The notes beneath the pieces are model-generated. The model was not told the origin of the DNA and did no database searches. It was given only the letters and a program-made list of their open reading frames with translations. Positions 9,737 to 50,400 of a DNA stretch of 64,000 nt are shown piece after piece; positions within the stretch are counted from its first letter, which is position 1, and each line of letters opens with the position of its first letter. The translations under genes and the position numbers were made by a program. The stretch comes from Entoloma clypeatum. Lineage: Eukaryota; Basidiomycota; Agaricomycetes; Agaricales; Entolomataceae. The stretch covers positions 1,116,001-1,180,000 of the forward strand of contig OY751496.1 of the NCBI GenBank assembly GCA_963565915.1, written 5' to 3'.

Positions 9737-10395
9737 ATTTGCCAGAATATTTAGGCTGGCAAGTTCTGCAATGCCAAGAATACATACTCTTGATGCTCAC
9801 TCTTACCAGATCTACCTTAGCACTGAAAATTGCAATTGTTTCCAGAAATGTCAGCCTGAGGGTAATGTCCATGTCATCCATATCCATTGCAATTTTCAAG
9901 ATTGTTATCACAATCAGAAACCCCAGCCTGGAAATTCTTGTGGGGTATGCAAACTCTATCCACATATATATAACATTTCAGAGATGTCAAGTTCTGCAAT
10001 CCCTAACCATTTTGTACATAGTGCTCACATGCACCATGTCCATCATGATTTTCGGGATTGTTGTCGCGGTTGGGGGCCCCAGCCTGGAAATGGTTCTGGA
10101 GTATGCAAACTCTATGCACATATATATAACACTTCAGAGATATCAAGTTCTGCAATCCCTAACCATTTTGTACATAGTGCTCACATGCCCCATGTCCATC
10201 ACAATTTTCAAGATTGTTATCACAATCAGAAACCCCAGCCTGGAAATTCTTCTGGAGTATACAGACTCTATCTGCATATATATAACCATTTATACTTGGT
10301 GTATTCCACATTCTGTGATAGTGGTGTTTCAAATGATCACTCTCACAAGGTCTAACATGAGAGTAGATATAGGAGAACTTAAAAACATGATCCAT
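9737..10395 (+). repeat. Tandem repeat, about 156 bp unit, open in two frames
   Basis: The phrase CCCCAGCCTGGAAAT recurs near 9919, 10076 and 10231, with the intervening sequence also conserved (CATTTTGTACATAGTGCTCA). At least three units are clear, with diverged ones at the edges. Because the unit is close to a multiple of three, two frames stay open for about 190-220 codons. I regard this as a by-product of the repeat, since the translations are low-complexity and match no family I know. Confidence 0.6.
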
Positions 10396-10410
10396 ACCTA
10401 ACTAAATATA

Positions 10411-19864: not shown

Positions 19865-20586
19865 TGTTATATCCGTCTCCGAATCTCCGATCCACTCCGA
19901 TCGTCCTCCGACTTTCCGGACTTTCCGGACATCCGTTACCTCCGCATCTCCGCATGTTGCCGTCGTGCATTTCATATTCATAACTCCATGCCTTTATGCA
20001 TTTCATATTCATATTCCCGTTTACTTATGCATCGCCTTTTCCGCATGGTCTGTTGACCGACATCTCCGATGTTCGTTACAGTCGCTGGCAACTTACGCCA
20101 CAACTCCGGACCTACTCCGACCATCTCCGTAAAGTAATCTCATTTAGATATTTAAGCTTGTACCATACCTGTAGTTCCTCAGTTCGAATATCAACAAAGT
20201 TCACTCCTCTACTCCCCGTTCATGCCAGAGATCCTCGCTGTGGTACAATACGCCGACGACATCCTCATCTACTGCTCTTCCTCCATCGTTACCCTTCGAC
20301 GAGCTCAGTACTGTGTCCGAGTCACAACTCCGACGTCGTCCGACCATTTCCACGTCAACGTGTCTCTCACCGAGATCTTTCCGAGGACCTCCGCATCTCC
20401 GACCTCTCCTCCGACCTCCTGAAATTGGGACACCTTATCCAACAAACGGCGGCGCAACACATACGTTGAAGCCACGTCCCTCCCCTTCGTCGTTCCTCCG
20501 CATTCCCGGAGTTCCGCTCCGGCCTCAGTCCTTCGTCCGACCTCCAACGGACTCCGACGAAGCTCCGACTTTTCACCTACTTAACA
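19865..20586 (+). repeat. 5' LTR (722 bp)
   Basis: TGTTATATCC at the start and CTTAACA at the end give TGTTA/TAACA termini. The TATA-like TATTTAA at 20149-20155 lies 32 nt before AGTTCGAATAT at 20181, the predicted transcript start. The first 96 bp alone contain ten TCCG tetramers. Confidence 0.95.
20222..20284 (+). other. Reverse-transcriptase-like YADD phrase inside the LTR
   Basis: Within the LTR, just after the predicted transcript start, an ATG opens a 66-codon frame that reads ILAVVQYADDILIYCSSS. This looks like the catalytic YADD box of LINE-type reverse transcriptases and differs from the element's own RT box (VVVYLDDILIYSDD). It is present in both LTRs (also 26946). It could be a captured RT fragment or chance; no other RT motif surrounds it. 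Confidence 0.4.
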
Positions 20587-20588
20587 GT

Positions 20589-20599
20589 ATATTCGAACT
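20589..20599 (+). promoter_or_regulatory. Self-priming primer-binding site
   Basis: ATATTCGAACT, starting 3 nt after the last LTR base, is the exact 11 nt complement of AGTTCGAATAT at 20181-20191. That is the predicted mRNA 5' end, about 30 nt after a TATA-like box. This matches the Tf1/sushi self-priming mechanism in length and placement. No tRNA 3'-end match (TGG) is present. Confidence 0.85.
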
Positions 20600-20626
20600 C
20601 AAACCGTTTTTGGATTCCTGCTAGTC

Positions 20627-21775
20627 ATGGCACTCCGAAACACCAAGACAGCAAAAGCCGCAGAAGCTGGCACTTCTAGGCAACAGGTTCTACAGAATGT
20701 CGAACAACGTTTAACAGAACTATCCCCCGTAACTCCCACTACTCCGACACCTCCGGGTTTTCAGCCCATCACACCTCCGCATAATATTCCGATCCCCACT
20801 TCCCCCATAGAATCCGCACCCCCGTCTCCTCAGAATATTTTCGGCCCACAAGCCCTTGCGGATGCTTTCCTCTTAATGACCAATGAACTCAAACGCAGCA
20901 AAGGTCACAAGCATCATAAAAAGGCTAAGGATCCGGACACCTTCGACGGTTCCGATCCCCGGAAACTGAACCAGTTCATCCTCCAATGCACATTGTTCTT
21001 CCGCGACAACTCCGAGTATGACGATGACTCTGCCAAAATCACTCTCGCCATCTCTTTCCTCCGAGGCACAGCTCTCGATTATTTCGAGCATTTCATCATC
21101 GAACCGGACCCGGATAACCCCCCGGACTGGTACGAAGATTGGTCCGCATTCCTCCGCACACTCCGCACGGAATTCGGGGTCATTGACCCCGTTGCGGATG
21201 CTGCCGACTCTCTGGACAATCTCAAAATGCGCGAAAATCAACATATTCTCAAGTATAATATCGAGTTCACACGCCTTGCTGCCAAAACGCACTGGGACAG
21301 CTCCGCCCTGCATCACCGGTACTACTCCGGGTTGGCGGAGCGGATTAAAGATGTCCTTGGGACTCAAGCAAAGCCAAGCACGTTACCAGCACTTAGGGAG
21401 CTAGCACAGACTATTGATGCTCGCCACTGGGAACGTCATCGCGAGAAGTCCCGCTCCGACAAGTCCGCATCCAAATCCGACAAATCCGAAGCTAAAACCC
21501 CCTCCGCAAACTCTGATAAAAACAAACCACAGACACAGAACCAGGGCAAACAGTCGAAGCCTTCCTCCGCTCCCAAGTCCGACATCTCCGACAAACTCGG
21601 AAAAGACGGAAAGCTAACTCCGGAGGAACGCAAACGCCGTTTTGACAACAACCTCTGTATGTTTTGTGGCAAAGCTGGACACATCGCGAAAGATTGCCTG
21701 AAGTCTTCGTCCTCCGCCTCTAAGGCTAAGGCGCGCGCTGCCCAAGCCAAGACCACGGACGAAACAAAAAATTAG
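20627..21775 (+). CDS. gag: Gag polyprotein, 382 aa
   Basis: The start is the first ATG after the LTR (MALRNTKTAK). Residues about 1-80 are Pro/Thr-rich. About 90-270 form the helical capsid-like retrotransposon Gag domain (KLNQFILQCTLFF, ALDYFEHF, DWSAFLRTLRTEFGV, GLAERIKDVL). About 275-335 are Lys/Ser-rich. A single CX2CX4HX4C knuckle (CMFCGKAGHIAKDC) lies near residue 344. Gag would assemble the cytoplasmic particle and package the RNA. It ends at TAG 21773-21775, directly after the slippery A_AAA_AAT, so a fraction of ribosomes should continue into pol. Confidence 0.95.
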   Translation: MALRNTKTAKAAEAGTSRQQVLQNVEQRLTELSPVTPTTPTPPGFQPITPPHNIPIPTSPIESAPPSPQNIFGPQALADAFLLMTNELKRSKGHKHHKKAKDPDTFDGSDPRKLNQFILQCTLFFRDNSEYDDDSAKITLAISFLRGTALDYFEHFIIEPDPDNPPDWYEDWSAFLRTLRTEFGVIDPVADAADSLDNLKMRENQHILKYNIEFTRLAAKTHWDSSALHHRYYSGLAERIKDVLGTQAKPSTLPALRELAQTIDARHWERHREKSRSDKSASKSDKSEAKTPSANSDKNKPQTQNQGKQSKPSSAPKSDISDKLGKDGKLTPEERKRRFDNNLCMFCGKAGHIAKDCLKSSSSASKAKARAAQAKTTDETKN

Positions 21776-21830
21776 CGGGCAGTCCACAGGACTCTGTACG
21801 GCCTGAGGACTGCGTTGAACCCATCCGTAC
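21766..21830 (+). promoter_or_regulatory. Programmed -1 ribosomal frameshift signal with H-type pseudoknot
   Basis: The slippery heptamer A_AAA_AAT (21766-21772) is in the gag frame and abuts the gag stop TAG. After a 6 nt spacer, stem 1 pairs GCAGTCC (21779-21785) with GGACTGC (21807-21813). It continues past an A-A mismatch with CAGG/CCTG (21787-21790, 21802-21805). The 11 nt loop contains GTACGG (21796-21801), which pairs perfectly with CCGTAC (21825-21830) to form stem 2. The geometry (loop 1 of 5 nt, no gap between stems, loop 3 of 11 nt) is that of viral frameshift pseudoknots. Pol lies in exactly the -1 frame. Confidence 0.85.
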
Positions 21831-24800
21831 TACCGCTCTACTCAACGCTTCCGCTCTTTCCGATCCCAATTCCCTCCGTGTCCGACTTACATCTCCGCTT
21901 ATCTCCGATTCTTCTCCGATAGCCGCCCTTGTGGACTCCGGCTCTACTCATTGTTTTATTGACTCCCATTATGCTTCATCCTATAAACTCCCTTTCACCT
22001 CCATACCTCCGATCGAACTTAAATTATTTGACGGAACGTCCAACTCCGTCATTACTCAGGCGGTTGATCTCCCTGTATACTTTTCCTCCGGTGAATATAT
22101 GGCCATTACAGCCTACGTGACTCCGCTCGATTCCTCCTGTTCTATGGTTCTTGGATACAACTGGCTCACCCGCTACAATCCTATGATTGACTGGGTATTG
22201 GGCAGTATTACTTTCCGTCCACAGCTCTTGAAGGAGTCTCCGACCTTGACGTCTTCTGCCAGGTCAGCTCCGCTACCTCCGCAGACCTCTCCCGATACTC
22301 CGACCTCCGACTCCGGCACACCCGCTGCTACTCCGGACGTTGTTCCGAATATTGCATTGATAAATGCAGCCGCATTTGTGCGCGCCTGCAAACTTCCGGG
22401 TGCCCAATCCTTCCGAATTCACCTCTCCGACCACACGATCTCCGCCCAATCCGTTTCTATGTCCGAGGAACCTCCGGACCTCTCCCATATCCCAGAGGAA
22501 TATCACGATTTTGCCGATGTTTTTAGCAAGACAAAAGCAGACACCCTCGCTCCGCATCGTCCGTATGACCTCCGCATCGAGTTAGAAGACGGATCGACTC
22601 CCCCTATTGGCCCTATGTACTCCATTTCACAATCCGAACTATCTGCCCTGCGAAACTTCATAGACGAACATTTGGCCATTGGCTTCATTCGCCCCTCTCG
22701 CTCTCCGCATGGCGCTCCGGTCCTCTTTGTCCGAAAGAAGGATGGTTCCCTCCGCCTGTGCGTCGACTATCGGGGCCTGAACAAAGTTACCAAGAAGGAT
22801 CGATACCCTCTTCCGCTCATCTCCGACCTCCTTTCCACTGCCGGAAAAGCGCGTGTTTATACCACTCTCGATCTCCGGCATGCATATCATCTTGTCCGCA
22901 TTGCCGACGGAGATGAATGGAAAACCGCTTTCCGCACTCGTTACGGATCGTTTGAATGGCTTGTTATGCCTTTTGGACTATCCAACGCCCCTGCTGCTTT
23001 TCAGCGATTTGTGAATGACATCTTCAGTGACCTCCTCGATGTTACAGTGGTGGTCTACCTTGACGACATTCTCATTTACTCCGACGACCCCGCCAAGCAC
23101 CCCGACGATGTCAAGGAAGTTCTCCGACGTCTCCGCAAGAACGGACTTTACGTCCGCTCCGACAAGTGCGAATTTTCTGTCGACACAGTCGAATATCTTG
23201 GTTTCATCCTTTCTCCCTCCGGTCTCCGCATGTCCGAAACCAAGGTGAAGACCATTCAAGAGTGGCCTGAACCTCGGAAAGTGAAGGACGTACAGTCTTT
23301 CCTAGGATTCGCAAATTTCTATCGACGTTTCATCCACGGTTATTCGGACATCGTTGTTCCGCTCACCCGACTCACCCGGAAGGGTACTCCGTTCCGTTTC
23401 TCCGACTCCGCACGGAGTGCGTTCAACGAGTTGAAGCTCGCGTTTACCAAAGCACCGGTCCTCACTCATTGGATTCCTGATCGACCTATTATCATCGAGA
23501 CGGACGCCTCCGACTACGCACTTGGTGCTATTTTGTCCATCCGGACCTCCGACGAGGAGATACACCCAGTAGCGTTCCACTCCCGCACCTTCACCGCCCC
23601 GGAACTCAACTACGACACGCACGACAAGGAGTTACTTGCTATCCATGAAGCATTCAAGGTATGGCGACATTACCTTGAAGGCTCCGCTGCTCCGATCGAC
23701 GTTGTCACGGACCACAAGAACCTGGAGTATTTCGCCACTACAAAGGTTCTCACCCGCCGACAGGCCCGGTGGTCCGAGTTCCTCTCTCAGTTCAATCTCT
23801 TGATTCGCTTCCGCCCCGGACGTCTCGGTACCAAGCCGGACTCTTTGACTAGACGATGGGACATCTATCCCAAAGAGGGGAATAGCGACTATGCATTGGT
23901 AAACCCAAGCAACTTCCGACCGGTCTTTTCCCAAGAACAGCTGTCCGCATCTCTCCGAGCTACGGAGTTGTTCACCCCTGTTCTCCGCGCCACAGTCATA
24001 ATGGACATTGAACAGTTGCACTCCGACATCCTCCGTTCACTCCCATCCGACCCAATCTATGCCGACCATCTCAAGGAGCCCAAACCGCACTGGTCCGTAG
24101 ACTCCGACGGTTTCCTCCGTCATAGTGGTCGCATTTATGTCCCCGACTCCGATAACCTCCGGCTCCGCACCCTCCGCAACAAGCACGACCATATTCTCTC
24201 CGGACACCCCGGACAGAACAAGACAGTTAGTCTCATTCAACGAGATTATACTTGGCCTGGTGTTCGAGACTTTGTCAAAAAGTACTGCAAATCCTGCACC
24301 ACTTGCATGCGCTCTAAACCCCAACGCCACAAGCCCTATGGTATGCTGAAGCAACTCCCAGTTCCGAACCTTCCGTGGAACTCCATATCCATGGACTTCA
24401 TCGAGACACTTCCGACCTCCGGCGGTTTTGACGCAATCCTTGTTATTGTTGACCGAATGACAAAACAAAGCATTTTTGTTCCGACTACGATCCACTGCAC
24501 CTCCGAAGATCTAGCCACCTTGTTCATCCTGCATGTGTTCTCCAAGCACGGAGTACCGGAGCATGTCACCTCCGACCGAGGCCCGGAGTTCGTCTCCCGC
24601 TTTTTCCGCTCCCTCGGAAAAGCCCTCAACATGACTCTGCACTTCACCTCTGGCTACCATCCTGAAGGCGACGGTCAAACCGAACGTACCAACCAGACCT
24701 TGGAACAGTACCTCCGCATTTTCTGTAACTATCAACAGGACAACTGGTCCGAACTACTTCCGCTTGCGGAGTTCGCGTACAACAATGCTCCGAGTGCTAC

Positions 24801-25470
24801 GACCGGGATCTCGCCCTTCTTTGCCAATAAAGGTTATCATCCGAACCTCTCCGTCCATCCGGAGCGCGACCTCGCATCCGCCCGTGCCCGACAATTCATC
24901 GTAGACCTGGACGAGCTTCACCAAGAACTCAAATCTACAATCCTAGAAGCTCAACGACGTTATCAAGGCCCCGCCGATCTCCGGCGTGCTCCGCCCCCTC
25001 CGCTCGAAGTAGGACAGCAAGCTTTTGTGAAGGCTAAGTTTTTCCGCACTACACGACCCTCCAAAAAGCTGTCTGAAAAGTACCTTGGCCCCTTTGACAT
25101 CCTTGCCAGGAATGGTACACACTCTTACACCCTCCGACTTCCGGACACCATACGCGGTGTTCACCCCGTTTTCCACATCTCCATGCTGGAGCCATCTGTT
25201 CCGAACGACATTCCGAACCGGACAGTAACTCCGCCTCCTCCGGTCGACGTTGAAGGAGAAGTGGAATACGAAATCGCCGAAATCCTTGACACCAAACTGG
25301 ATCGCCGGCGTTCTTGCAAACTGCTCTACCTAGTCCGTTGGCTAGGCTATGAAGGAACCGATGAGGAACAGTCCTGGCTACCCGCCACGGAACTCGAACA
25401 CGCGACGGACTTAGTTGCGGACTTCCACTCCGCGTATCCGGAGAAACCGGGCCCCTTATCACACCTATAG
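21772..25470 (+). CDS. pol: Pol polyprotein: protease, RT, RNase H, integrase, chromodomain
   Basis: The -1 frame is open from 21730 to TAG 25468-25470 without interruption. Domains follow in order, with residues counted from GTG 21931. Protease: DSGSTHCFID at 2-11 and LGYNWLTRYNPMIDW near 75. RT: YLDDILIYSDD near 374. RNase H: ETDASDYALG near 523 and TDHKNLEYF near 590. Integrase zinc domain: GHPGQNKTVSLIQRDY and CKSCTTC near 750-795. Catalytic core: SMDFIE, TSDRGPEF and TSGYHPEGDGQTER, all three acidic residues present. Then a GPFDI module, VHPVFHISMLEP and a C-terminal chromodomain (LLYLVRWLGYEGTDEEQSW) near 1110-1170. All catalytic residues I can check are intact. It is expected to be made only as a Gag-Pol fusion. 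Confidence 0.95.
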   Translation, partial: LAGSPQDSVRPEDCVEPIRTTALLNASALSDPNSLRVRLTSPLISDSSPIAALVDSGSTHCFIDSHYASSYKLPFTSIPPIELKLFDGTSNSVITQAVDLPVYFSSGEYMAITAYVTPLDSSCSMVLGYNWLTRYNPMIDWVLGSITFRPQLLKESPTLTSSARSAPLPPQTSPDTPTSDSGTPAATPDVVPNIALINAAAFVRACKLPGAQSFRIHLSDHTISAQSVSMSEEPPDLSHIPEEYHDFADVFSKTKADTLAPHRPYDLRIELEDGSTPPIGPMYSISQSELSALRNFIDEHLAIGFIRPSRSPHGAPVLFVRKKDGSLRLCVDYRGLNKVTKKDRYPLPLISDLLSTAGKARVYTTLDLRHAYHLVRIADGDEWKTAFRTRYGSFEWLVMPFGLSNAPAAFQRFVNDIFSDLLDVTVVVYLDDILIYSDDPAKHPDDVKEVLRRLRKNGLYVRSDKCEFSVDTVEYLGFILSPSGLRMSETKVKTIQEWPEPRKVKDVQSFLGFANFYRRFIHGYSDIVVPLTRLTRKGTPFRFSDSARSAFNELKLAFTKAPVLTHWIPDRPIIIETDASDYALGAILSIRTSDEEIHPVAFHSRTFTAPELNYDTHDKELLAIHEAFKVWRHYLEGSAAPIDVVTDHKNLEYFATTKVLTRRQARWSEFLSQFNLLIRFRPGRLGTKPDSLTRRWDIYPKEGNSDYALVNPSNFRPVFSQEQLSASLRATELFTPVLRATVIMDIEQLHSDILRSLPSDPIYADHLKEPKPHWSVDSDGFLRHSGRIYVPDSDNLRLRTLRNKHDHILSGHPGQNKTVSLIQRDYTWPGVRDFVKKYCKSCTTCMRSKPQRHKPYGMLKQLPVPNLPWNSISMDFIETLPTSGGFDAILVIVDRMTKQSIFVPTTIHCTSEDLATLFILHVFSKHGVPEHVTSDRGPEFVSRFFRSLGKALNMTLHFTSGYHPEGDGQTERTNQTLEQYLRIFCNYQQDNWSELLPLAEFAYNNAPSATTGISPFFANKGYHPNLSVHPERDLASARARQFIVDLDELHQELKSTILEAQRRYQGPADLRRAPPPPLEVGQQAFVKAKFFRTTRPSKKLSEKYLGPFDILARNGTHSYTLRLPDTIRGVHPVFHISMLEPSVPNDIPNRTVTPPPPVDVEGEVEYEIAEILDTKLDRRRSCKLLYLVRWLGYEGTDEEQSWLPATELEHATDLVADFHSAYPEKPGPLSHL

Positions 25471-25541
25471 AAGCACGCAAGACTCTCATATTGCAAAAAA
25501 AATAATAAAAAATAATGAAAAGAAACTAGAGGGGGGAGGGG

Positions 25542-26507
25542 CTACTGGGTTTTGGCCTTTTTGGCCGGCGGACCCTCATTCTCCGACCCTTCCTCCGACT
25601 CCTCCGTTTTTTCCCCTGTTTCTTCCTCCGCTTTCCTCGCCTGCTTTTTCTCCTCCTCCATTTTCTCCGCTTGCAGTTCCGCAAGCTCCCCCTCGTCCAA
25701 CCCCTCGTCCTTCTCCTCGTCCTCTTCCTCGTCCTCTTCCGCACTTTTCACCTCCCCTCCGTCATCCTCCGACTCCGGAGCCGCCGCCTCCAGCAAGAAG
25801 TTCCGGTAGGCGAGGTGGTTGTTTAAAATTTGCAGCTGCCGGAGCAGCGCCCAACCGACCCTCGCCGACCGCTCCTCTCTCTCCTCCAGAGCCTCCCGGA
25901 GCTCCTGGAGCTCCTCCGCGACCCCTGCGCCGCAGCAGTTCTTTGCCCCGCTCGGGCCCGCGACCTCCGCGACGGCCTCCTCCGTCTTCCCCCGTTTACG
26001 CTTCGCCCTCGTCTCGCCGGTTTTCAGGCAAACCCGTTTGCCGTCTTTACACCGCTGGCATGCGGTGCCTTTCCCCTGCCTAAGGAGACTGTCAGTAAGA
26101 AAAAAAAGATGAAAAAAAAAAAAAAAAAAAGCGGGTACTCACAATGGCCACTTGCACTCCACCTTCGCCTGTGCACAGGCCTGACACGCCTCCCCCCGGA
26201 CCTCCGATTCCTCCGCTCCGCTCTCCGCCCTCTGTTTCCCCGCCTTCTTCGCCCTCTTCCTCTCCGCCTCCGCCTCCGCCTTCGCCTCCGCCTCTGCCTT
26301 CTTCTTCGCCTCTGCCTCCCTCGCCCTCCTCTCGGCCTCCGCCTTCTTCCTTGCCTCCGCCTCCTCCTTTTCCTTGCGTATCTGCGCCAGACGGCGCAGG
26401 AGCTCCTCTTCGGAGTCGTCTAGGTTGGCGCTGGATCGGGGGGGCTGTGTGCTCGAGCCTTGGGGCATGTTGGTGGTAACTGGAAGAAACCCTTGAAAGC
26501 CGCTCAT
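25542..26507 (-). CDS. Antisense spliced gene with Zn2Cys6-like cluster, coiled coil and acidic tail (303 aa)
   Basis: Exon 1 is 26507-26143 and exon 2 is 26088-25542, with a 54 nt GT-AG intron at 26142-26089 (GTGAGT...TGACAG). The joined frame is open from ATG to TAG for 303 codons. Residues about 30-95 are a charged helix rich in Lys, Glu and Ala (RLAQIRKEKEEAEARKKAEA). A six-cysteine motif CX2CX6CX13CX2CX6C (CQACAQAKVEC ... CQRCKDGKRVC) spans the splice junction. It is close to the fungal Zn2Cys6 consensus except for the slightly long middle loop. KRKRG and KKAK look like nuclear signals. EELQELREALEERERSAR is a likely coiled coil, followed by an Asp/Glu-rich tail. The layout suggests a nuclear DNA- or RNA-binding regulator carried by the retrotransposon, transcribed towards pol from within or beside the 3' LTR. 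That role is inference. Confidence 0.75.
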
Positions 26508-26575
26508 CTCCGTTAAATAACCGAGACCACATGACCTTGTTTATTTTCTCGCGGTCTTCCATGGGTGTCAGACCT

Positions 26576-26587
26576 AAGAGGGGAATA
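26576..26587 (+). promoter_or_regulatory. Polypurine tract
   Basis: AAGAGGGGAATA lies one base before the 3' LTR start at 26589, where plus-strand priming is expected. Confidence 0.8.
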
Positions 26588-26588
26588 C

Positions 26589-27310
26589 TGTTATATCCGT
26601 CTCCGAATCTCCGATCCACTCCGATCGTCCTCCGACTTTCCGGACCTTCCGGACATCCGTTACCTCCGCATCTCCGCATGTTGCCGTCGTGCATTTCATA
26701 TTCATAACTCCATGCCTTTATGCATTTCATATTCATATTCCCGTTTACTTATGCATCGCCTTTTCCGCATGGTCTGTTGACCGACATCTCCGATGTTCGT
26801 TACAGTCGCTGGCAACTTACGCCACAACTCCGGACCTACTCCGACCATCTCCGTAAAGTAATCTCATTTAGATATTTAAGCTTGTACCATACCTGTAGTT
26901 CCTCAGTTCGAATATCAACAAAGTTCACTCCTCTACTCCCCGTTCATGCCAGAGATCCTCGCTGTGGTACAATACGCCGACGACATCCTCATCTACTGCT
27001 CTTCCTCCATCGTTACCCTTCGACGAGCTCAGTACTGTGTCCGAGTCACAACTCCGACGTCGTCCGACCATTTCCACGTCAACGTGTCTCTCACCGAGAT
27101 CTTTCCGAGGACCTCCGCATCTCCGACCTCTCCTCCGACCTCCTGAAATTGGGACACCTTATCCAACAAACGGCGGCGCAACACATACGTTGAAGCCACG
27201 TCCCTCCCCTTCGTCGTTCCTCCGCATTCCCGGAGTTCCGCTCCGGCCTCAGTCCTTCGTCCGACCTCCAACGGACTCCGACGAAGCTCCGACTTTTCAC
27301 CTACTTAACA
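26589..27310 (+). repeat. 3' LTR (722 bp)
   Basis: It is the same length as the 5' LTR and identical to it wherever I compared, except one base near 26645. It ends CTTAACA and is followed by the target duplication GTATG. Its left part is just upstream of the antisense gene's ATG, so it could host that gene's promoter. Confidence 0.95.
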
Positions 27311-30190: not shown

Positions 30191-30267
30191 GTCCCATTCT
30201 CCGTTCCGATCAGTAGGTTTGAAAAATGACGTTAAGCCTCCTGAGGTTGGTGTATCAAATCGGAATA

Positions 30268-33200
30268 TTATTCATATATCCCTCGGTAATTGTCTTCCAA
30301 ATCATAGTCACTTTTGTGGTTATCATCTCCTGAAGTATCGCTCTCCACATCCTCCCAACCCTCCAAGTCATGATCTTCCAAGGCCATTTCTGCGTTATGC
30401 GATTCATGATACACGTTGCTACCCATATCTGTAACATGTGTATCCATGTTGCCTGGCGGTGGTTCGGGATCCGCAAATAGATCATCTGAAGCATTGAGGT
30501 TTCTTGAGGTGTCAGGAATACAGCTAGAACGGTGTGCATGAAGATGCCCAACACCCAGGCCGCAATGATAGTGCATGAGCAAATCCCAGTCAGAAAACCT
30601 GCCAATTTGATTTGGATCAGTGTCAAACTCATAGTGCACTGCTGAACATACCGGCCAACATAATACAGCTTGTAGTCTCCACTATCTTTGGCACAACGTG
30701 ATATGTCAATCTTGTTTTCTTTTTGTTTGCCCTTTGCAAAGGCAGGGAGAATATGACACCCCCACAGTACATTGTGCGGATCCAGAAAGCCAAAGGAAAT
30801 CATCCTCATGCATAGGAGGGAAGCGGACTGAGTCCAACATGAAATTATTCCATGCTGAAGACCCCGCATCAACAACCTCATACCATTGCACCCACAAAAA
30901 TTCCAAGCAGCGGGCCTCATAGTCCCGCATTCCTGGCCCTGTATAGATCACATTGGCATGATATGCCCCTAGTATTCGCGCGTACAAAAAGCGATGTAAA
31001 TTTGAAGGGTTGGAATCATCTGCGTAATCTGCAAGTAACATGACGTTGCAACGAGACGCCCCCGGCTTGACAATATCAGTCCCGCGCCGCACATCATAGA
31101 TGGTGAAGTTGAATCGAAGGATCTTGTGTTGGTATATACAGTCGCGCTTGAAGAACACATAATCATGTGCAGTATCACCCAGACTATGGGAGGATCTGGC
31201 ATTGGGGGCTGTACTGAGCTCAGGACAAGATTCAGCCTCCTGCTCAAGTGTCGCTTGGATACGGGGGAGTAGATGGTCTCTCAGCTTTGGAAAAAAATTC
31301 TGTACTAGAGGTTTGAGGGAGCACATATAAAAGAGAGAAAACTGGTCACCTTGATGGCAGGATCGCCACCATTCCATTGTAGAAAGGTGGGAATATGCAC
31401 AGGGAGTTTCTGTGACGTTCCCATATTGTAACGAACCCCGGGATTGACGGTTATATCCTCCAGCTCTATTTGAGAGGGAAAGCCATTTATGTTTTTGTGG
31501 ATCATGCAGATGTGTCGTTGTTGCTGTTTGATCTTTGACAATTGCTGTGGTATCGATCGGCCACTAGTCCGAAGGAACTGCCCTTTTGTAGTTCGGTGCT
31601 CCCGCTCACTCTGATAGGCGGTTGATATCAAGTGGCTCAATCAGGGTGTCAAGAGAAACTTACTGGCTGAGTAGAGTATGAGTCTGTTGTACCAAATCGC
31701 CGAATAGTATAATGATAGTCGCCAAGCGCATGGTATTTGTAAGTCTTCAAGTTAAACCGTTTCGGTTGTCTCGCACTGTGACCTTTCTGAGATTTCAAGT
31801 CGGAAGATCCTGGTTCTGTTGTGGCCATGTTTTTTTCCTGATGCCGCATTCAGGCAACCTTCTCACATTCCAATTCCCATGTTGGAAATGCTACACATGT
31901 TCCCTCCTGGAATCTGCGAAGTCTGTCGCCCAGAGATGTAGTGACTTGTGACAAATGTCTTTGAGTGAGATCTGTGTGCATCCATAGCTTGGCAGGACCA
32001 TGCCAGTGAGCCAGATTGAACAGAAGCTGGAGAATACATGTATTGTGGGGTTCAGGAAGGAGGCCATCAAAGGCCGGGATAGCGCACTGGATGAGCATTT
32101 AGACATGAGTTATGTTCATTTTAAATCTAGCTGTCAACCCTACTTACTTGCAACATATCCTCATAATCATGTGCCGTCATCTTCTTTAGTTCCAACTGGT
32201 TTGTTGTTGTCCTCCTTACACCGTCAATCCCGAAAGGCAGAATCTCTCTGAAGCTAATGAAGTTGAAGCTTAGTGTTAGATCCCAAAGGTTATACTGATA
32301 ATGCTTACCACCGATCCAGTTCATATTTCATATTTTCATTCCTGCAGTCTAGAATGCGTAGCAGGTGGATGAATACTGCCTTCCAGACGCCAAGCTCAAC
32401 TTCATGCATTAGGTCTACAACTAGCATGTTGAACATATTGAAGTCGAGTGGCGATAGCTTATCCAAGAATGCATTCTGAAACAGTGGGTCGTTAACCTCA
32501 GCCGCATAACAAAAAGGCACACTCACTGCTGTTGGAACCAGAGAATCCTTTTTTAGAAGCCTCTCCACACCCGTGCTGTCAACCGCACAGTTGCTCCCAT
32601 ATATGACCTCTCGCACAGCCTCAACATGACTACAACGCTTCACACCATCAATACGGGCAAGGGACAGGCGCTGCGCCATGTCCCAACGCATTCCCATATT
32701 AGGAACACAATCCAATGGTATGAGACACCAAGAACAAGGGCAGCAACCAAGATTGCGGATGCTGGCTAGTAGTATTCTAAGATACATGAGTTTTTAGTAT
32801 TCTGACGATGTGGTGAGAACTCACTTCTCCTTGTAATCTGCGGAATATGTGAATATGCGTGGGTAAAAATGGCGCCAAATGCCATCACAACATTTGACAA
32901 CCATTCCATGCCGGTATGCTTCCAGAAATTCATCGTCGAGGATGATTGACCATTGAGCATGGTACATTTCTCGATGGCAATGCCCCATAAACGTGGAATT
33001 GGGCCCCTTGCTGATATTCTCCGCGGCGAAGGTTGCAAAGGCATCAGGGAGCTATCATTCAACAGGATTGAGGTCTGCATGACATCGGCATACATGGTTT
33101 CACACACCGTTTCCAGATAAGCAACATGTTCGAATGCATGACAGGAAGGTTTAGACCTTTGATCTTTTGACTCATTTCCTATCATGAGATAAACAGGCCA

Positions 33201-34445
33201 CAATTTAGCGTTGCTGAAAGACGTGAGGTGGGTACCATCAGAGGCGAACATGAGACCAATCACAACCCTTGGAAGGTCGCATCCCGGTTCTTGGGAAGAA
33301 TCTTGGAGCTCACTATGAGCCTTGATGAACGCCTCTGATGTGTACAGCTCGCCATGGACCTGGACTGGCTGAGGAGCATCATTTGGTTGCCAAAATAATT
33401 TGTAAGTTTTGAAATGGAGGTGGGGGTGCACGGAGGGTCGGGTGATTTTCTCCCTGATCATGGAGGTCAACTTGCGATGATGAAGAATGCCCGTGTCGAA
33501 CTCTTTTTGACCCGGGTGCAGCATTCGTTTTTGAAAGGGAACATTAATTTTAATTGGTGTTTGGATCCACCCTCTGGGTCTGCTATCCTGTTCGTCCTCC
33601 CAGCCATCGTCCTCCTCGCAGCGCTCTCTGCTCAGCTGGGTGTCAATAAGTCGCCAATTCTTGCCTGCAACATCCTCCAGGTGAAAGTCTGGATGTCCAA
33701 CTATCTTGAGGAGATTCTGGAAGCTGGACTGCGATTTCTTTTCACCATCATTCCAATACCATTCTCCTAGCAGAAATGTTGATTGGTTTGGATATGGGCA
33801 GTAGCTGTGGGCCAGAGGGGTGGAAGACAGGTCTGAGGATGCATCTATCAAGTCATTGGGTGTGATGTTGTCGCTAGGATCATGATCAGGGAAGCGAGTC
33901 GCATGGTATTGTCGGAAAAGGCCAAATCCGTTGTGCATGGATTTGATGATCCTTCTGACCAGAGACACAGGCCCCGGAAATTGCTGAGATGGGGGCTGAG
34001 ATGCCATTGTTGGCTCCGCTTGCGCACAATCTGACAGGGCCTGCAAAGACGCAGGGGGAAGTGCAGCTGGAGGTTCAGGTGCTATATCCTGATAGCGCTT
34101 TGGCAATTGGTGATGTTCTCGGCGCATCCTCCATTCCGCTATAGGTTGATGGAGATCATCATAGTTGGTGGTTGTCTCGTGGCCTGAACACAATCTCTCG
34201 GTAAGCAATGACAGTGGCTAGGCAATTCACCTCATTCAAAGGCAGCTCAGCGGCAAGACCTCCTTGGCCTTTTCCAAGGCAGAAGAAAGTCCTTTCTTTG
34301 TCTTCGGGCAACTGCGTGTGTGATATGTGTATGCCTGTGGTACTGAGAATGTCTGTCCACAGATACAAGCTTGAGACCAAGCTGGTGGCACATTCATTAC
34401 TAGAATAGCACCTAAAGGAGGATGTATGATGTGGGGGGGCCACCT
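30268..34445 (-). pseudogene. Plavaka (CACTA-superfamily) transposase, multi-exon
   Basis: Minus-strand order: N-terminal Cys/His cluster (CICGQTFSVPQA, YHTRSC) and KTKKGLSSALEKAK; LPKRYQDIAPEPP; YPNQSTFLLGEWYWNDG; FQNLLKIVGHPDF; then the core with GLMFASDGTHLTSFSNAKLW and GNESKDQRSKPSCHAFEHVA. Next exons read LASIRNLGCCPCSWC, VVDLMHEVELGVWKAVFIHLL, CAIPAFDGLLPEPHN, FNLKTYKYHALGDYHYTIRR and FFKRDCIYQHKILRFNFTIY. The last read LYARILGAYHANVIYTGPGM and DWDLLMHYHCGLGVGHLHAH. The SDGTHL and DLMHEVELG blocks carry acidic residues typical of the DDE core. Length and block order fit a near-complete transposase, but joining exons near 32790 needs a non-obvious acceptor, so I do not claim it is active. 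Confidence 0.82.
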
Positions 34446-34609
34446 GCCGTGCAGTGGAGGGGCGTCCTGTTGAAAGAAGTGTGAAGTACCCTTTTTGACT
34501 CAGAAGGGTTGTGGCAATGTGGTGAGTCATTGACTGGTGCCTGGCAATCAAGAACCAAATCATAGTCAATGTTGAGGGTGGTCGCATTGCCGATAGTTGA
34601 AAGGCCAAA

Positions 34610-35185
34610 GGCCCAGATCATTAAGGGCAGGGAAGGCATAGCTGACGTGAGAGTTGGCAGAGATAGTAAACCATCTGGGATTTACGAAGGACCAGGAGCA
34701 AAAGTGCTCAAGATCCACCTGCGTTTGAAGTTGACATAACACAAGTAATGATTGAGGTACTCGTGATGGTCCAGGATGCTGGGAGGTCGTGGCCGATATG
34801 AGAGATGTAGAAAAGACAGGCAACAATGCGGGATTGTAGAAAGACCAGGAGCAAAAGCGCTCAAGATCCACCTGCATTTGAAGTTGACACACAACACAGT
34901 AATGATTGAGGTATCTGTGAAGGACCAGGAGCGAAGGCGCTCGAGGCCGCATCGTGAATGGTGGGACTGTAGAAAGAAGCTCGAGATGCTGGGAGGTCGT
35001 GGCTGATATGAGAAATGTAGAAAAGACAGGCAACAATGCAGGATTGTAGAAAGACCAGGAGCAAAAGCACTCAAGATCCACCTGCATTTGAAGTTGACAC
35101 ACAACACAGTAATGATTGAGGTACCGGTTCGGGTGCTAATGATGGAGGAGCAGCCCAACCAGGAGCAAAAGCACTCAAGATCTGG
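34610..35185. repeat. Plavaka subterminal repeats, 5' side of copy 1
   Basis: At least five copies of a motif like GACCAGGAGCAAAAGCGCTC (centres near 34695, 34855, 34935, 35065, 35170) lie upstream of the transposase. Most are followed by AAGATCCACCTGCATTTG. The core GAGC...GCKCTC is an imperfect palindrome. The 29.4-30.1 kb array is a second set. These are probable transposase-binding sites; the exact element ends were not found. Confidence 0.6.
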
Positions 35186-35259
35186 CTCTGCCATATGATG
35201 CATCCTTGCGATGTTAATAGATAAACCTAGACTCGTTCCTGATACGGCCTCTTCAGGCT

Positions 35260-47441: not shown

Positions 47442-50400
47442 TTATGAAAATGTCAAGCCTAAATGTTGGCAACATCTTTCAAATAGTTTCCAACTAAGAT
47501 TTTTAGTTAGCATATCTGCGGGGTTGGATGTGCCTTCAATGTACTCTACAGTGATCAATCCATGAGAGATGTACTCTCGGATGACGTGATATCTCAGATC
47601 GATATGTTTAGTATGGTGTTCCTGTACAGGGTTGTTCCCAATAAAGATTGAGCCATGATTGTTAGCATAGATCGGGACATTCCACATTAGGAAGCCAATC
47701 TCCTGGAAGAGTTGGATTATCCATTTTACTTGGCGGCTGCAATTGGATATCACCATGTACTCTGCTTCAGTAGATGAGTGAGCAATGGTTTTTTGTAGAT
47801 GACAAGTCCAGCCTACAGAAGCACCTGCAAGCTTCAGGAAAAATCTGGTGCAGCTTCAATGCTTAGTTTCATTGGATGCCCAGTCAGAATCCATGTAGGC
47901 ATGTAAGCCCACATTTTGATCACCGGAATATGTCAGTTGGTAATCAGAAGTGCCCACGAGGTAGTGGATTATATACTTCGCTTTATCAATGTGTTCCTAG
48001 GTAGAATTTGCCTAGAACTGTGATAATGTAATCACAGCAAAGGCAATGTCAGGTTGTGTACCAATCATTAAATATAGCAGAGACCCTATGATCTGCTGAA
48101 ATTGTGATCGAAGCGCAGCAGTGGCGGTGCCTGTAAGGGCGACCTTACGATCCAACGACTCCGAAGTGCTCCGAAGCGACTCCGACATCGGACGACTTGC
48201 AAGGGAAATCCAAAGTTAAATTAGACTCTACGAAGTACAATACGAGGCATACCTTGCAAGTTTAATCCAAAGAGAAAGTTCTGAGGATTCCCTTGCAGGC
48301 TGGACAGCTATATAGATGATGAGAATTGGAAATGAGGAGAGGAATGTTGAAATACGACAAAGATTGGGAGTAGGGATGGGAACGGAATATGTAAATCGGA
48401 AGTGTGCATGTGGTGGTATAAATCATTGCTCTGACGTGCACTCCAACGTGGAGGATGGGTCGGAGGTGTCGAAGGATAGATGGAAACGAAAGGAAACGTA
48501 AAGTATAGTAATATAAATAATAGACGTACCACAATGGTCGGAGGGTCGGAGGATGTGTCGGAGGTGTCAGATTGAGGAAATCGGATGGTTGCCCTTACAG
48601 TGCCAGCATTTGCTGTCGGCTTGTATCCAGTAGGTAGAGGAGTCTTGGCAATCATAGCATTTGTCATGCCGAATCTCTCTACTACTTTCTGTAAATAGAC
48701 ACATTGATCAATCATGATCATATTCTTGGTATGCATGATGCACATTCTCAAGAATTCAGTGGGTTCACCTAGATCACAAGATTCCCAAATAGCCATGAAT
48801 TTGGCTCTTTTAACGGTTGTAAGCTTAGTGTCTGGTCCCATGAACATTGCATCATCGACATAGATTATTGCTAGTATGATGGTTCCATTCAGGGAATAGA
48901 AAACAAAGATTCAACTAGGGAAACCTAGTTTCTTCATGGATTTCTCCATGGCATGCCACCATGCAAGTCCAGCCTGCTTTAAACCATAAATTGCCTTATG
49001 CAGGCGCCAAACAAGAAGTTCTTTGCCTTTTACGTTGAAGCCTTCAGGTTGCATCATGTATAGCTCTTCCTGGAGTTTCCCATAAAGAAAAGCAGCAGTT
49101 ACGTCAAGCGCGAGAATCACCCAACTCTCAAGCGCGACGATAGTGAGCATGAGACCTACTGTCTCGAATCGAACTACAGGAGAGAATACCTCGTCGAAAT
49201 TGATTCCCTCAATTTGCGAGAACCCTTGTGCAACAAGCCAAGCCTTTTTACGGCCGTCGGTTTTTATGTTGAAGACCCATCATGATCCGATGGCCTTCCG
49301 TCTCGTCTGTAAAGGTGTTAGATCATAGACATCACGCTGCTTGATGCTATCAAGTTCCTTACAGCATGCATCCAACCACTCATCCTGGAGGTTTTTCAGC
49401 ATTTTGGCAATGTCGCAAAACTTCATCTCCCAGATATCACAGAACTGTGAGAGATTAGATTCAGAGTGAGGAACAGCTGATGCAAGTAGCGTGTTCAACT
49501 CAGTGATCTGTTTCGTGTCTCCCCCTCATTTCTGAACTAATTGTTCTAGGTACAAGTTAAATGCTTTTGGACCTGGCTCCACATCATTCATCATTTTGCA
49601 CAGTAAGCTCTCCACATCCATATCTTCCAAAGGTTTGTCATCAGGAACTTTGGGGTCATCGGGAGGAGTACCAGAAGATCCACTAGGCCCTGCATCAGGT
49701 GGGGCTAAGGGGGAACTAGGTTCCACTTCTTCCTGTCATGATCGGGGAACATTGCGGAGCCGGAAAGGTTCATGCTGCTGTTTCTCTCAATTCATGGCTT
49801 CACACCAAGAGCATGTGTGATTGATGTCGTGTTGTTATTGCGCGGGGTGCCGTTGCTCCCCATAGATGTTGCCTTCCCATCAAGGCGGGTTAGCGTTCCT
49901 TCGTGGTTGAGGGGCATCAGCAGGCGGAGGATTCGCCAGCTGGTTCTGGACCTCAGGGTCATCCTGATTCGAAGGTGGTACATCAGCGCCGTCGTGCTGG
50001 TTTCCTTTTGGAGTGGAAGGGGGATCAGAGGATTCATCTCTGCTCGGCTGATTATGCCTGTGGGAATGATAATGAACATCTTCATCTCCGAAGTGGTGAT
50101 CAACATTGTCATCAGGGTTTCCATCATCCTGAGACTCATCATGGGAAGGCTCATTTCCCATGGGTGTGTGTTGTGGCACTTTGGTATCCAGACATCTCGG
50201 AAAGAGTGTTTCATCAAATACCCCAGTAGTACCGATAAAGATACTGTTTTTATCAGTCATAAACTGATATCCTTTCATTCCTGGTTCAAAACCCATAAAG
50301 GTCATAAGCTCTGCATGTGGATTTAATTTATTCACAGTGTTCTTCAGGAATATAAATATAGGCAGCGCAGCCTAAAACACGGAGATTAGATACATCCGGT

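Follow-up and report, generated by a model that had tools for sequence, protein, structure and literature searches.

A selected, spliced antisense gene for a zinc-cluster-like protein in a young Ty3 chromovirus of Entoloma clypeatum

Additional antisense open reading frames located between pol and the 3' LTR are known in plant LTR retrotransposons (PMC7264820, PMC11963269). In the passages of these sources that deal with them, they occur in most copies of some families and some encode a product that is nuclear or predicted to bind DNA. The functions of extra antisense genes in LTR retrotransposons are called yet unknown in the corresponding section of a review (PMC7264820). An extra antisense gene named brtn was also described in Boty-like Ty3 elements of Botrytis, according to excerpts of three papers (PMC8365987, PMC4227169, PMC5987419). 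Among complex retroviruses, the antisense HBZ gene of HTLV-1 is presented, in the relevant passage, as encoding a nuclear regulator (PMC11963269). In parallel, the VANC proteins of Arabidopsis VANDAL are encoded by a DNA transposon in which, as the extracts of two papers have it, a short motif is repeated within non-coding tandem repeats (PMC5735166, PMC10398659). Finally, a passage of PMC5559640 states that Zn2Cys6 proteins typically recognise two CGG triplets, arranged as inverted, direct or everted repeats, and that they do so as homodimers with a downstream helix.

The antisense gene reported here was found in the window, the 64,000-nucleotide stretch of Entoloma clypeatum DNA that was analysed. 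It shares with the plant frames its position, its orientation, its presence in most copies and a predicted nuclear, DNA-binding product, as far as the extracts on those frames go. It differs from them in its host, a fungal chromovirus, in a single short intron at a fixed place and in an element-wide motif, and a six-cysteine cluster stands in place of their TRP28. The antisense gene brtn of the Boty-like Ty3 elements of Botrytis cinerea, reportedly the subject of Zhao et al. 2011, is comparable in that it, too, is an additional antisense gene carried by a chromodomain Ty3 element of a fungus, a likeness drawn from partial descriptions only, whereas its host is an ascomycete. The sequence-only reading had likened the locus to antisense genes of complex retroviruses; this parallel holds for the layout and for nothing beyond it; HBZ is a protein of a different type, and the likeness is claimed in layout, not in sequence. 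As in the Zn2Cys6 regulators Gal4, Hap1 and Pho7, the cysteine spacing is followed by basic and helix-like stretches and by an acidic region, and a CGG-type motif occurs in direct repeats, here within the element. Nevertheless, the protein has no Pfam match, a second family departs from the residue pattern and binding is predicted. The VANC-type trait of a short motif repeated in the encoding element is seen in the density, spacing and codon-shuffle excess of TCCG/CTCCG, the motif being a candidate target; unlike in VANDAL as described, it also saturates the coding regions. Within the open-licence PMC literature, no account was found of a basidiomycete Ty3 element with a spliced antisense gene of the zinc-cluster type, nor of the fixed intron, splice-dependent cysteine cluster, selection over two families or motif load.

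The pol gene of the host element contains RVT_1, RNase H, integrase and Chromo domains above the Pfam cut-off, which are features of Ty3/Gypsy chromoviruses. Its LTRs, of 722 bp each, differ at one site and are bordered by the target-site repeat GTATG, and the element is therefore a young Ty3 chromovirus (Table 1). Further copies were sought in the source genome of the window (60 Mb, 20 contigs, the window lying in contig C15). Both LTRs exceeded 500 nt in 14 of 20 element stretches, with identities of 95.7-100%, two of them at 100% and the 95.7% value stemming from 31 gap positions. The gag gene is intact in 12 of 14 spanning copies and pol in 9 of 16, with pN/pS of 0.21 and 0.40, respectively, among close copies. 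A near-identical copy of the antisense gene was observed about 58 kb downstream in the same orientation (G000:C15:1199864-1200829). Elsewhere in the window, degenerate large frames at 30255-34127 on the minus strand resemble a Plavaka/KDZ-type DNA transposon, and frames made of internally repeated peptide blocks at 9771-10401 and 34566-35203 suggest tandem repeats.

Table 1. Features of the host element and of its antisense gene (window coordinates).
Feature	Position	Strand	Evidence or content
Ty3/Gypsy (chromodomain) LTR retrotransposon hosting the antisense gene	19865..27310	+	LTR pair, 5-bp GTATG repeats at both sides, pol domains
5' LTR	19865..20586	+	722-bp LTR pair
gag	20627..21775	+	DUF4939-like and zinc-knuckle matches, both slightly below Pfam cut-offs
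pol open frame, stop to stop	21730..25470	+	other frame than gag, overlaps gag end; domains from 22099 on
Antisense gene, exon 2	25542..26079	-	second CX2CX6C, basic stretch, helix-like stretch (by composition), acidic tail, C-terminal PPAKKAKTQ, stop
Six-cysteine cluster codons CQACAQAKVECKWPLQGKGTACQRCKDGKRVC	26028..26186	-	split by intron
Antisense gene, intron	26080..26142	-	63 nt here, 46-63 nt across copies; donor GTGAGT, branch-like CTGAC, acceptor CCTTAG
Antisense gene, exon 1	26143..26468	-	conserved ATG at 26468; N-terminal Lys/Glu/Ala-rich stretch (coil by composition); first CX2CX6C
Leader between 3' LTR and formerly proposed start ATG, polypurine tract included	26508..26588	-	TATTTAA box at 26519
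3' LTR	26589..27310	+	722-bp LTR pair

The antisense gene consists of two exons on the strand opposite to pol, between the end of pol (25470) and the 3' LTR (26589-27310). Its structure was followed in 30 close copies (L001-L030, L001 being that of the window) and in 11 diverged copies (L051-L061) picked from the family-1 exon-2 match list of the same genome. The central proposal of the sequence-only reading, an intact spliced antisense gene on a young Ty3 element, was upheld, the two-exon frame being kept in other copies and the LTRs being near-identical. Its boundaries were revised. The start that had been placed at 26507 is a GTG in 13 of the 30 close copies (L003, L004, L005, L006, L008, L009, L011, L012, L013, L019, L021, L022 and L029) and the ATG at this place is out of frame in all ten scorable diverged copies; 40 of 41 copies have an exact ATG at 26468, the region being unrecognisable in L060. 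In the same way, the acceptor AG formerly set at 26089 lies only 3 nt from the branch-like CTGAC and is lost in seven of the 11 diverged copies (L051-L054 and L058-L060), where CTGACAG reads CTGACAA, whereas all 41 copies have the acceptor CCTTAG that ends at 26080. The intron is thus 26142-26080, of 63 nt. The 54-nt version (26142-26089) does translate to the announced 303 amino acids and a stop, but the corrected product has 287.

The spacing of the fungal Zn2Cys6 cluster is CX2CX6CX5-12CX2CX6-8C. The six-cysteine motif of the antisense gene exists only once the intron is removed, as had been proposed, although with the spacing CX2CX6CX10CX2CX6C instead of a central X13. With the 54-nt intron the central gap of 13 falls outside the Zn2Cys6 spacing, and with the 63-nt intron the gap of 10 falls within it. 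The intron holds a T run (window 26112-26130) that counts 19 T here and 7 to 19 T among the 30 close copies, a variation that explains most of the change in intron length among them. Upstream of the gene, the leader (81 nt) is the least diverged stretch in nearly all copies, with 0-2% in 11 of 12 and 7% in L059, against 5-24% for exon 2 in ten diverged copies. The polypurine tract accounts for part of this conservation, and the rest of the leader could correspond to an antisense promoter or a 5' UTR.

A lack of conservation of the frame among other copies had been named in advance as a refuting outcome, and the copies show the contrary. A full-length frame is found in 35 of the 41, namely 28 of the 30 close ones (not L026 and L027) and seven of the 11 diverged ones (not L053, L054, L059 and L060). 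In all 35, the length of exon 1 is 2 modulo 3, and their introns, of 46-63 nt, take all three remainders modulo 3 (21, 8 and 6 copies). The comparison of synonymous and non-synonymous changes among copies, also called for beforehand, revealed purifying selection: pooled pN/pS was 0.35 in the frame over the 21 pairs of seven diverged intact copies, and 1.08, 0.98, 1.35 and 1.11 in four other frames for the same pairs. The value of the minus-1 frame, 0.43, is expected, its third positions coinciding with those of the true frame. Pairwise dN/dS ranged from 0.19 to 0.54 among seven diverged intact copies (L001, L051, L055-L058 and L061). By region, in eight chosen pairs, the ratio was lowest in the zinc region (0.14) and highest in the acidic tail (0.86). 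Among the 28 intact close copies, the antisense gene had a pN/pS of 0.28, between the values of gag and pol.

A genome search with the end of pol gave 114 scored matches, of which 82 were assigned to the family of the window element (family 1, 88-100% identity) and 32 to a second family (family 2, 81-83%). The family-2a element L062 carries in its 3' region an antisense gene of 303 amino acids with a Lys/Glu/Ala-rich N-terminus, a CX2CX6CX8CX2CX6C cluster, a basic stretch, an acidic part and a C-terminal KKQRTK. The 53-nt intron is in phase 2 and interrupts the frame three residues past the third cysteine, the very place and phase seen in family 1, and both families have in common a C-terminal KK.[KR]T and an identical order of parts. 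The six cysteines are invariant in the four aligned proteins, and families 1 and 2 otherwise share 27%. BLASTP between the proteins of the two families returned no significant, usable match, the sequences being too diverged, and their relation is therefore drawn from pol, position, intron and cysteine order. Exon 1 of sub-family 2b (L063) is nearly identical to that of 2a (L062) while exon 2 is about 70% identical, with a dN/dS of 0.47; this pattern suggests recombination at or near the intron.

Genome searches with exon 2, each taking the best 150 candidates, yielded at least 161 match rows for family 1 and at least 153 for family 2, some loci giving two. For pairing with pol, 132 of the 161 family-1 rows and 35 of the 153 family-2 rows were used, chosen by eye near pol matches. 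Among the rows used, the antisense gene was found on the opposite strand at most 900 nt downstream of 77 of the 82 family-1 pol matches and 31 of the 32 family-2 matches, and no same-strand gene was found downstream of pol. Because both families carry the gene at the same place, with the same intron site and phase, it predates their split. Since the frame, exon length, splice site and pN/pS are kept and a second family has the same layout, selection maintains the antisense gene as an accessory gene in a young lineage of chromoviruses.

The cysteine spacing fits that of Zn2Cys6 in all 35 full-length copies of family 1 as well as in families 2a and 2b. In the window's gene it arose in 0 of 20,000 residue shuffles of the protein. 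The Zn2Cys6 residue pattern of PROSITE PS00463 fits 34 of the 35 full-length family-1 copies (not L028), whereas families 2a and 2b misfit. Pfam scanning of the corrected spliced proteins gave no Zn_clus match even at E <= 10, and the other Pfam matches were sub-threshold noise only (ADD_DNMT3 at E 0.025, PIN_9, Acyl-CoA_dh_2 and DUF7573). No match was obtained in a PDB sequence search. Likewise, no homologue was found at the thresholds used in a protein collection, which is perhaps poor in fungi, with the whole protein, residues 103-232 or the four-sequence alignment. Part of the protein-collection, PDB and Pfam searches and the family-1 exon-2 search used the 54-nt splice, which adds a net three residues at the junction; the rest used the corrected one. 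The protein is designated here as zinc-cluster-like and is not filed as a Zn2Cys6 member, because of the missing Pfam Zn_clus match, the departure of family 2 from the residue pattern and a motif strand bias that fits an RNA target.

The element carries this motif, TCCG/CTCCG, at extreme density. Its 7450 nt, both LTRs included, contain 213 TCCG and 63 CGGA, or 185 and 58 when a single LTR is counted. The density of TCCG is thus 28.6 per kb, against 1.7-1.8 per kb outside the element in the window. All parts are concerned, with 38.6 per kb in the LTR, 22.6 in gag, 28.7 in pol and 24.8 in the antisense gene region, and TCCG is found in all three codon phases of pol (32, 29 and 33). In 400 synonymous-codon shuffles of pol, TCCG was the most enriched 4-mer (94 vs 51.4, z 9.3) and CTCCG the most enriched 5-mer (55 vs 20.9, z 9.4); the reverse complements CGGA (32 vs 20.2) and CGGAG (9 vs 3.3) were also enriched, with z 3.5 each. 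In the whole element, the 213 TCCG compare with a second-order expectation of 140. Five other transposon-like stretches of the window contain 0-3.9 TCCG per kb on their coding strand.

Codon usage was considered as a cause of this density and rejected, the counts of gag and pol being reached in 0 of 500 synonymous shuffles. The excess is weaker in the antisense gene, where the CGGA count was reached in 4 of 500 shuffles and that of CGGAG in 0 of 500, and in family 2 CGGAG was in excess (0 of 500) but CGGA alone was not (102 of 500). Preferential survival of CpG in the TCCG context was rejected as well, since decay rates are similar across contexts: in diverged copies CpG was lost at 78 of 316 CGGA, 18 of 54 TCCG and 181 of 599 other sites. 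The observed/expected ratio of CpG is 1.16 in the element and 0.55 in the surrounding DNA, and the plus strand of the element is C-rich (C 0.34, G 0.20).

The sites also show a preferred spacing. Of 212 pairs of successive TCCG, 77 are separated by 8-12 nt, against 27.8 +- 4.5 under random placement (maximum 43 in 1000); when one LTR only is counted, this holds for 62 of 184, against 23.0 +- 4.3 (maximum 38 in 1000). In pol alone, 28 of 93 pairs have this spacing, compared with 5.7 of 50.6 after codon shuffling. Distances of 9 nt are the most frequent (21 cases), and the preference fades past the first turn, the number of pairs per 5-nt bin dropping from 69 first to 38-40 and later to 21-38. 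A peak at 10 nt is likewise seen for everted TCCG-to-CGGA pairs (9 vs 1.6). L063 shows the 8-12 nt spacing less strongly (5 of 24) than L062 does (14 of 44), and in family 2 the motif belongs to the longer context CTCCGAC. The strands are unequally served: TCCG and CGGA number 213 and 63 in the element and 45 and 4 in L062, and CTCCG and CGGAG number 137 and 17 in the element, 35 and 0 in L062 and 22 and 0 in L063.

Genome-wide, clusters of three CTCCG number 2755 + 2559, against 460 + 436 for the reversed pattern. Among the matches listed (100 places, all on C1), some were assigned by eye to families 1 and 2 and others to further repeats, so that the motif may not be exclusive to gene-bearing elements. 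Another repeat rich in CTCCG clusters, possibly a third element family, was observed at G000:C1:302710-307548, C1:914945-915147 and C1:2461143-2461345. Two isolated CTCCG triplet clusters lie outside the element in the window, at 48159-48184 and 48539-48563; the first also occurs at C1:514978, and the frame near them is presumably Copia-like.

The explanation retained as the most probable, with fair though far from complete confidence, is a gene under selection whose product is a nuclear, DNA-binding regulator of the element that carries it. Once transcribed and spliced, the gene would give a nuclear zinc-cluster-like regulator with two CX2CX6C arms predicted to bind zinc, a basic stretch, a possible dimerisation helix and an acidic tail. 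The KKAK of its C-terminal PPAKKAKTQ resembles a nuclear localisation signal and is consistent with a nuclear product. The protein might then bind the short CGGAG (CTCCG) sites gathered in the LTRs, in gag and pol and in its own gene, where they frequently form direct repeats with a spacing of 8-12 nt, close to one helical turn, and so recognise its own element. That CTCCG is its target is a tentative proposal, somewhat more likely to be wrong than right. Such binding would keep the element's own copies transcribable, through activation or anti-silencing, or would set their level. Activation or anti-silencing is favoured, by analogy with VANC, because of the depletion of CpG in the surrounding DNA, which suggests that the genome mutates methylated CpG in repeats.

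The strand bias of the motif speaks against a regulator of this kind, as a double-stranded DNA site does not require it. It would suit a protein acting on element RNA, in its packaging, export or translation, the CUCCG repeats of the sense RNA being the target of the protein or of Gag; the motif is indeed asymmetric toward the sense RNA in the window element and in both L062 and L063. Yet CGGA and CGGAG are also enriched over the codon shuffles of pol, the preferred spacing is close to one turn of DNA, the C-terminus resembles a nuclear localisation signal and the cysteines have the spacing of a DNA-binding cluster and not of a CCHC knuckle, so that an RNA target is judged improbable. The C-rich plus strand and the CTCCG clusters of other genome repeats would agree with a captured fragment of a fungal transcription factor that works mainly on host genes near insertions and has no link to the CTCCG of the element, the density of this motif being a habit of base composition. 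This is likewise an unlikely account: TCCG exceeds both the codon shuffles and the second-order expectation, survival of CpG fails as an explanation in view of its similar loss across contexts, and the other transposon-like stretches of the window are poor in TCCG.

It could also be that the antisense transcript itself is functional, as double-stranded RNA or by interfering with sense transcription, and that the protein is incidental. The gene is convergent to pol and retroelement antisense RNAs can work in this way, according to a passage of PMC7264820; nevertheless, purifying selection on amino acids, exon lengths that preserve the frame and a conserved splice site leave this a very small chance. 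As for a chance open frame in repetitive GC-rich DNA, other long frames do occur on both strands (for instance 25415-26083 and 25827-26423 on the plus strand) and the minus-1 frame also has a low pN/pS, though for the expected reason given above. The selection tests and the second family contradict it, and it can hardly be entertained any longer.

The reading of the gene as coding for a nuclear regulator of its own element can be carried further, to a self-addressed system in which the protein would coat all copies of its family and relieve their silencing, or activate them. The element would in that case have rewritten its whole sequence, coding parts included, with more than 200 TCCG/CGGA sites, many of them at helical-turn spacing, and the whole would correspond, in an LTR element, to VANC anti-silencing, its sites being set in gag and pol by synonymous choice. 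This extension is speculative and rather doubtful.

The antisense gene has a clear cysteine cluster that depends on splicing, it is intact in many young copies and present in two diverged families, and its candidate DNA target lends itself to direct tests. If the link between the protein and the motif is true, it would show how an element addresses its own scattered copies and escapes host silencing. In the same case, the motif load would be a constraint that shapes codon choice in gag and pol.
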